Origin: Candidatus Nitrosopumilus sp.
Lineage (GTDB): Archaea; Thermoproteota; Nitrososphaeria; Nitrososphaerales; Nitrosopumilaceae
Reading direction: 5' to 3'
DNA: 64,000 nt
NCBI GenBank assembly: GCA_008080815.1
Contig: VMDM01000024.1
Span: 1-64,000, forward strand
In this document: positions 37,446-39,665 of the stretch, piece after piece
How the letters are laid out: each line of letters starts with the position of its first letter
How positions within the stretch are numbered: position 1 is the stretch's first letter
The notes under the pieces: model-generated
Databases searched by the model: none
Told to the model about the DNA's origin: nothing
The model's input: the letters and a program-made list of their open reading frames with translations, nothing else
Translations under genes and position numbers: made by a program

Positions 37446-37634
37446 ATGAATTTTAAGTGTGTTTTTCAGGATTGTGGTTTAAAATTTAACAACATTACAG
37501 AAAATGTTTTCAGTAAACATCTCGATGAAGTTCATTCTGATGAATTGATTGAAAATGCAAAAAGAGAAAGCATATCAGTAGAAACTATGAAAATGATGAC
37601 TATTTCAAATTCTAAAGTTTTTATTAATTCTTAG
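37446..37634 (+). CDS. Small zinc-finger protein (62 aa)
   Basis: Starts MNFKCVFQDCGLKFNNITEN. Cys at residues 5 and 10 and His near 25 and 30 (KHLDEVH) form a C-x4-C...H-x4-H pattern, a C2H2-like finger with an unusual spacing. The rest is helical. Its last bases overlap the convergent helicase gene by 4. Confidence 0.55.
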   Translation: MNFKCVFQDCGLKFNNITENVFSKHLDEVHSDELIENAKRESISVETMKMMTISNSKVFINS

Positions 37635-39331
37635 ATGTCAATTTTAAGTACATCATAATATGATTTAGGAATCATTCTTTGTGCTTTGAATAAAACATTG
37701 TTTACGGCAGTATCTAAAACGTATGTTTTAGCCCAATCTGTCTCACTTCTAATGGATCTTCCAAATCCCTGTAGAAGTTTTGTAAGCGTTTGTGATGTAT
37801 ACCATAATGGAAATTTATCCATTTTTGCTTTGATTCTTTTTTCTTTGTAATTAGGATATGGCACTTTGGCAATGATTTGGAATCGAGATAAATCATCTTT
37901 AAGATCAACTCCTTCCCAGAGTGACGAGGATAGTAAAACACTTGCATGATCCTTTGCATGTTCCTGAATAATTTCATCCTGAGATTTTCCATCAGGGTTT
38001 GAACTGTGACAAATCTTTATTCTACGAGTATTTTTTGGGGACAAGTATCTTTGAATTAATTTACATCTGGGAATAGAAGATGTTAATATCAAACCCCGTT
38101 CATCTTTGTGCTCATCCATTATCTTATCAATAATTTTGATTACTTCTAACTCATCCTCATGTGTTGAACCGTAACTTAATCTTCGAATATTTAGAAAATC
38201 AATACTTCTATTTACTTCTGGAAAAGGAGATTTCGGAGTATCAATAAAAGCAATTTCATCTAAATCTAAACCTAAATTTTCACAAAAACTATTTTTGTCA
38301 ATTGTTGCAGACATGAAAATCTGATATTCTGTTTCAAAAAAAGTTTTAGCAAATTTTGATACATCAATTGGTTTTATTGAGACAAATTTGATTTTCCCAT
38401 CAAGATCTTTTTGAGGTTCATTTACAACAAAATTCTCTTTATCTTCAATGATGTCGATTCTAGCTTGAGCAGTTTTATCGTATCTTTTTTCTAATCTAGA
38501 TAATTGTTCAAAATCAGGATTTTTTTCAAAATTTGGATCTTCTTTAATCTGTTTAATTTTTTTTGCATACTGAAAAGCCATATCATCAGTTAAATTCACC
38601 ATAGAATCAATATCCGAATAATCATATCTGGAATAATCTAACTTGCATTCATCTATTTGTCCTCCAAAAATATCAAAACCAACAAATTGAATTATTTGAT
38701 CTTCAATCTTATGTGCTTCATCAAAAATGGATACTTTTCTATCTAAATAATCTGCAAAAAGTTTTCTATTAAATTTCATTATTTGAAAAAATGAATGATA
38801 ATTCCATAAAGAATGATTAGAAATTAATGCCAAATATTTTTGTAAATAATAATGACATGAATCAGATGAATGAGAATTTTCTTCAACTTGTTTGATTGTA
38901 GGTTTAAATTTACATATTTCTACTATTTCTTTTCCATCTTTAACTATCCTTTCTTGACATTGACCTTTTTCACAAGTCAATCCCCATCTCATAGCTTTTT
39001 TTTCATTCTCAATTTTTTCAAGTGACATTAATTTTTCACAAGGAAAATTTTGTTTTCCCTTTACAGATTTCATAAATTTTATGTCTTTCATATATTGATC
39101 CTGAAGATGTTTTGATGCTGTAATAGTAAATGAACTATTGAAATAATTTGAAATTGTAGCACCTACAAGTGATTTACCAACACCCGTAGGTGCACAAAGA
39201 ATTATTTTTTTATATCCTGAGTCAATTTTTGATTTAATTTCATTTAGGATCTCTTTTTGAATTTCTCTAGGTTGAAAATCTGTTGGAAATTTTTCTAATA
39301 AAGACAGAATGAAACTAATTTTTTCTTCAAT
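37631..39331 (-). CDS. XPD/DinG-family DNA helicase, AUU start inferred
   Basis: An ATP-dependent superfamily 2 helicase. Walker A is APTGVGKS (residues 47-54 if AUU is residue 1), DEAH is SIFDEAHKIE (204-207). Five cysteines between about residues 98 and 159 (including CEKGQC) could bind the iron-sulphur cluster seen in XPD. The C-terminal helicase domain has SSSLWEGVDL and GRSIRSETDWA. The frame is open from an upstream TAA (39350-39352) with no ATG, GTG or TTG before the Walker A. AUU at 39329-39331 lies about 26 bases after a TATATACC-like box, so it is the likely start, giving 566 residues; the first ATG (39091) would lose the Walker A. Confidence 0.8.
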   Translation of the reverse strand: MEEKISFILSLLEKFPTDFQPREIQKEILNEIKSKIDSGYKKIILCAPTGVGKSLVGATISNYFNSSFTITASKHLQDQYMKDIKFMKSVKGKQNFPCEKLMSLEKIENEKKAMRWGLTCEKGQCQERIVKDGKEIVEICKFKPTIKQVEENSHSSDSCHYYLQKYLALISNHSLWNYHSFFQIMKFNRKLFADYLDRKVSIFDEAHKIEDQIIQFVGFDIFGGQIDECKLDYSRYDYSDIDSMVNLTDDMAFQYAKKIKQIKEDPNFEKNPDFEQLSRLEKRYDKTAQARIDIIEDKENFVVNEPQKDLDGKIKFVSIKPIDVSKFAKTFFETEYQIFMSATIDKNSFCENLGLDLDEIAFIDTPKSPFPEVNRSIDFLNIRRLSYGSTHEDELEVIKIIDKIMDEHKDERGLILTSSIPRCKLIQRYLSPKNTRRIKICHSSNPDGKSQDEIIQEHAKDHASVLLSSSLWEGVDLKDDLSRFQIIAKVPYPNYKEKRIKAKMDKFPLWYTSQTLTKLLQGFGRSIRSETDWAKTYVLDTAVNNVLFKAQRMIPKSYYDVLKIDI

Positions 39332-39530
39332 ATTAAAGCAATGAGGTGATTATGGTATATTGATTTAATTCATAATTAATGGTAATTTTTTCAGAATTTA
39401 TCACCAGTAGTAAAAATCCAAAAAATTTTAAAATTAATATTTGAAAAAATTAGTAAATTATTCAAAAATTTTACTAAAAATTATTATTTTTCTAATGAAA
39501 TTATTTATTCTAGTTACGCCCATTATAGTA

Positions 39531-39665
39531 GTGCATCAATGTTACTATTGTGAGCAAATTTTTGACTCAAAAGAAAGTCTTTATGATCATGTTGAAATTC
39601 ATTCAGATACCGAGAGAAATCGTGAGATATCTGAACGTCAAAAAGCAAAAAGAAGGGCAAATTGA
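39531..39665 (+). CDS. C2H2 zinc-finger protein (44 aa)
   Basis: From the GTG at 39531 the protein reads MHQCYYCEQIFDSKESLYDH then VEIHSDTERNREISERQK. CxxC-x12-HxxxH (C4, C7, H20, H24) is a classic C2H2 finger with a basic tail (KRRAN). An open frame extends upstream to a TTG at 39441 through a hydrophobic stretch, which could instead be a membrane anchor; the short form is preferred from the zinc finger's usual position and promoter spacing. Confidence 0.5.
   Translation: MHQCYYCEQIFDSKESLYDHVEIHSDTERNREISERQKAKRRAN

Follow-up and report, generated by a model that had tools for sequence, protein, structure and literature searches.

A probable CUG start codon at or near the mRNA 5' end of an XPD/DinG-type helicase gene, kept across Nitrosopumilus

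A gene for an XPD/DinG-type helicase, an enzyme of the DNA-repair kind, in Candidatus Nitrosopumilus sp., one of the marine ammonia-oxidising archaea, lacks a canonical start codon in front of its Walker A motif, which raises the question of where its translation begins. The window, meaning the whole stretch of 64,000 nucleotides that was analysed (contig VMDM01000024.1 of assembly GCA_008080815.1), carries the helicase frame on its minus strand from 39349 to 37631, a length of 572 codons. As stated in the original prediction, the frame is open after a TAA at 39352-39350 and contains no ATG, GTG or TTG before Walker A; the first canonical codon in frame is the ATG at 39091-39089, which is codon 87 and lies past the motif. 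The frame terminates at the TAA at 37633-37631. The features that bear on the question are:

39350..39352, minus strand: upstream in-frame stop TAA that closes the helicase frame
39331..39337, minus strand: TATA box TTTAATA of the helicase promoter, at a position conserved in the orthologues
39329..39331, minus strand: ATT proposed earlier as the start and rejected here, overlapping the last base of TTTAATA (39337-39331)
39308..39310, minus strand: ATT directly before the CTG, a minor rival start in a variable column
39305..39307, minus strand: proposed start codon CTG, from the orthologue alignment and the gene tree
37631..39307, minus strand: helicase CDS from CTG to TAA, 558 aa, XPD/DinG-type superfamily 2, from Pfam matches
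39170..39193, minus strand: Walker A motif APTGVGKS, read from the translation, where it covers residues 39-46 with the CTG as codon 1

The absence of a canonical start is real and not due to chance, because among the 82 non-overlapping ORFs of the window that are conserved in the relative G036, the helicase has conservation extending 73 codons 5' of its first canonical start (48 in G036) compared to 13 codons for the runner-up, which makes it a clear outlier. Judging from the related genomes it is not an assembly error either, because the comparison with relatives that had been suggested along with the original prediction found about 50 other species without a canonical start in the same place.

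The predicted protein is matched by the Pfam families Helicase_C_2 (1.9e-24), ResIII and DEAD_2, with the PF13307 and PF06733 matches exceeding their curated cut-offs. Its matches to the YoaA/DinG/rad3 models are distant and its similarity to XPD chains of PDB entries is weak; no solved structure is close to it. Invariant cysteines at positions 90, 112, 117, 132 and 151 are located between Walker A and Walker B, in the region where XPD-type enzymes have the four cysteines of their iron-sulphur cluster. The protein thus resembles other XPD/DinG-type superfamily 2 helicases in its Helicase_C_2 and DEAD_2 domains, its Walker A motif and its conserved cysteines in the expected cluster region, and only its start codon is unusual. 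A protein search of 100 genomes recovered orthologues at 72-77% identity in most of 59 species of the same genus as well as deeper relatives, so that the gene occurs throughout the genus; one copy was found in the window's own genome, which is 87% complete. Fifty-two distinct sequences from the genus could be aligned without gaps from Walker A back to the column of the CTG at 39307-39305, which is located 38 codons before the alanine of APTGVGKS. More divergent helicase relatives show TTG in this column in L048 and L050 and possess a longer N-terminal region with cysteine pairs in L051-L053.

In the 52 orthologues this column reads CTG in 46, TTG in five and ATG in one, the outgroup-like L044. 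It changed only three times on the gene tree, two of the changes leading to TTG and the third separating the outgroup with its ATG, and there is no replacement of CTG by ATG within the crown genus. By comparison, 34 conserved leucine columns of the same gene changed between 4 and 27 times with a median near 18, and in each of them the share of CTG is at most 22%; CTG makes up 7.0% (147/2099) of the internal leucine codons. The codons that replace CTG, namely TTG and ATG, are themselves established starts, and the pattern is that of a start codon and not that of an internal leucine. No other column between codons -9 and +7 has a near-cognate of ATG in every one of the 50 full-length sequences, as this one does. 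Upstream of the CTG the frame is closed in 47 of the 52 orthologues by a TAA at codon -9, which forms part of a TTTTAATA block, and 32 have an in-frame TGA at codon -7, and the stretch from the upstream stop down to the conserved domain contains no canonical start common to the orthologues. Eight orthologues (L009, L010, L023, L027, L032, L037, L040 and L065) have an ATG or TTG in frame a few codons upstream of the CTG, none of which is conserved, and those that form part of the TATA box cannot be included in a transcript that this box directs. On these grounds it is nearly certain that translation of the helicase gene begins at a CUG, a rare start codon, located at the 5' end of the mRNA or close to it. 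Some fifty species of the genus retain this start, which gene-finding programs easily miss.

The promoter places this codon at the position expected of a leaderless start. The first T of TTTAATA is located at -29 from the CTG in 47 of the 52 orthologues, at -28 in three and at -30 in the window. As a yardstick serve 541 ATG genes of G036, a complete relative, with a start shared with a further relative, G006; before these genes the motif TTTA[AT] peaks at -29 (31 cases) and -30 (25 cases), so that the CTG occupies the position that the ATG has in a leaderless gene. A Shine-Dalgarno-like word precedes only 90 of the 541 ATG genes, and none was found in 45 of the 52 helicase orthologues. The helicase gene thus combines a TATA spacing that is typical of leaderless genes in the genus with a mostly absent Shine-Dalgarno sequence, and both suggest a leaderless mRNA whose near-cognate start is conserved. 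The spacer of the window is one base longer than in most relatives, and as the extra base is situated in untranslated DNA, no read error need be invoked. Conservation in the relatives reaches well beyond the TATA box in the upstream direction (AACC..CAT.CTTTTAATA). When G036 was searched with the conserved element AAGAACCTTCATGCTTTTAATA, the helicase promoter (with three mismatches) was the only convincing match. The conserved stretch, at 39337-39353 and further upstream on the minus strand of the window, is possibly a BRE or a binding site for a regulator.

In the original prediction, the core idea of a non-AUG start on a leaderless mRNA is supported, but not its choice of codon, its promoter box or the alternative it offered. 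Its start was an AUU (39331-39329) with a TATATACC-like box 26 bases upstream. The frame is indeed open there in the window, yet this AUU can hardly be the start: the ATT overlaps the conserved TTTAATA, so that it is located at the TATA box, its spacing is off by one base, and in the relatives the corresponding position is out of frame or interrupted by stops, most of them having both the TAA and the TGA in frame here. The proposed box, which in fact has the sequence AATATACC, is unconserved, and EEKISF, the proposed N-terminus of the protein, which the same stops (TAA in 47/52, TGA in 32/52) interrupt, is absent from the other sequences. The alternative of a one-base homopolymer error in the A6 run has become moot, because the run is situated in the untranslated spacer between box and start, where its length is irrelevant to the frame. 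Both the AUU and the homopolymer error are ruled out by the sequences of the relatives. It is highly improbable that translation starts from an upstream ATG or TTG in another frame and then shifts frame, or that the A6 run contains a sequencing error. Many relatives do have ATGCTTTTAATATTG upstream in another frame, but the ATG is absent in the window, L010, L015, L021, L024 and others; where it is present it sits in the TATA box, and the spacer sequence is unconserved with no shared slippery run. A sequencing error would have to account for a canonical start that is likewise missing in about 50 independent genomes, several of them complete. The frame-shift was rejected with the ATG being unconserved and at the box.

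The codon that directly precedes the CTG is a minor rival as the start of a strictly leaderless mRNA (ATT at 39310-39308 in the window, ATC or ATT in most species). It has an A at its first position in most species and reads ATN in 37 of 50, and the box would then be 26-27 bases upstream, inside the range of the ATG genes. Against this stand 17 changes on the tree compared to three for the CTG column, near-cognate codons in only those 37 of 50 sequences with ACC, TCC, TGC, AGC or others elsewhere, and the fact that the replacements by TTG and ATG occur at the CTG column and not at the codon before it; the codon is too variable and a start at this position is very unlikely. Finally, the chance that the gene is a pseudogene, or that it truly starts at an internal ATG such as 39091, is vanishingly small. 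The ATG at 39091 is the first canonical one and a forced choice for any gene caller restricted to ATG, GTG and TTG, but 50 species have an uninterrupted frame with every motif, and the part of the protein encoded ahead of this ATG, including Walker A, is conserved.

The best explanation, and very probably the correct one, is that the gene has its own TATA box, a leaderless or near-leaderless transcript and initiation on the CUG at 39307-39305. The helicase would be transcribed from TTTAATA at 39337-39331, and the transcript would start at the CTG or within a few bases of it, with its 5' end perhaps 1-4 bases upstream since a start exactly on the C would be unusual. A ribosome carrying initiator tRNA-Met would then initiate on this CUG, directly at the 5' end or close to it and unaided by a Shine-Dalgarno sequence. 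The product would have 558 residues and begin Met-Ser-Leu-Leu-Glu-Lys-Phe-Pro. The conservation of codon, box and spacing and the lack of a shared canonical start can be read from the alignment itself, from which we infer the exact end of the transcript and the insertion of Met at the CUG. The weak codon may have been retained to keep helicase expression low or regulated, because CTG has persisted for so long in the crown genus without being replaced by ATG. In this the helicase would be reminiscent of infC and pcnB of Escherichia coli, which have AUU starts, in that selection keeps a weak start codon to limit or regulate expression. The mRNAs of infC and pcnB, unlike that of the helicase, are leadered and bacterial, and their regulation has been demonstrated.

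Starts at CUG are otherwise extremely rare, with two switches to CUG among 61,358 ancestral AUG starts (Belinky et al. 2017, PMC5622118), and another study cites CUG starts for 20 ORFs in 69 genomes (PMC9845219). With these rare prokaryotic CUG and AUU starts (PMC5622118, PMC9845219) the helicase shares a near-cognate codon that would be read by the initiator tRNA; unlike those scattered cases, its CUG is orthologous across some 50 species and in a leaderless position. Leaderless translation is thought to be strongly AUG-dependent, at least in E. coli, where leaderless mRNAs appear to require AUG (PMC5622118), which counts against a CUG start. The leaderless initiation complexes described for Saccharolobus, a TACK archaeon, contained AUG or GUG and did not include CUG (PMC11698992). 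The helicase is like the archaeal leaderless mRNAs in that a TATA-spaced transcript is expected to begin at the start codon with no Shine-Dalgarno sequence, and unlike them in its proposed CUG. A search of the literature on CUG or leaderless starts in Nitrosopumilus, with most subscription journals outside its reach, found nothing on the helicase case. A conserved CUG at the predicted 5' end of an mRNA in a globally abundant archaeal genus would constitute a natural test of start choice by archaeal ribosomes on mRNAs that lack a leader.

Further near-cognate starts were surveyed by comparing G036 (1.585 Mb, one contig) with 0.8 Mb of G006, which yielded 993 non-overlapping conserved ORFs. Each candidate with conservation extending 10 codons or more 5' of any canonical start was checked by eye, and RNA genes, shadow frames and ORFs reaching an obvious canonical start were excluded. 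This left three cases, the helicase and the following two genes:

L209-L238 and L269-L284, for example L159:17515-17979, plus strand: Lrp/AsnC regulator
L239-L268, for example L142:4148-5317, minus strand: carA, carbamoyl-phosphate synthase small subunit, named from sequence

Of the Nitrosopumilus loci of the Lrp/AsnC regulator, 37 have ACG as first codon and seven, including that of the window's own genome (L284), have ATG; this codon directly follows an in-frame stop (TAG, TAA or TGA) and is located 6 bases after a conserved AGGTG. In G036 and G006 the first 54 codons of carA include no ATG, GTG or TTG; the gene's likely but less certain start is an ATT (ATA in three loci) that follows a conserved GAGGGTNACA and is located 37 bases after a TTAAATT box. 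Near-cognate starts are thus infrequent in the genus, with about 3 in 1000 detectable, yet they recur and are conserved. The chances are roughly even that they are stable and selected in Nitrosopumilus, with CUG on the leaderless helicase mRNA, ACG with a Shine-Dalgarno-like sequence in the Lrp/AsnC regulator and AUU or AUA in carA. If so, start-codon selection would be less strict than in well-studied bacteria, and ordinary gene callers would truncate or miss a set of conserved genes that are held at weak initiation. Programs that accept only ATG, GTG and TTG would drop the Walker A region of the helicase and truncate the two other conserved genes genus-wide. For all three genes the codons are named exactly and can be tested. 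In the window the helicase gene is flanked by small ORFs with C2H2-like Cys/His patterns (39441-39665 and 37446-37634, both on the plus strand), the one upstream being divergent; on that side the relatives have another neighbour.
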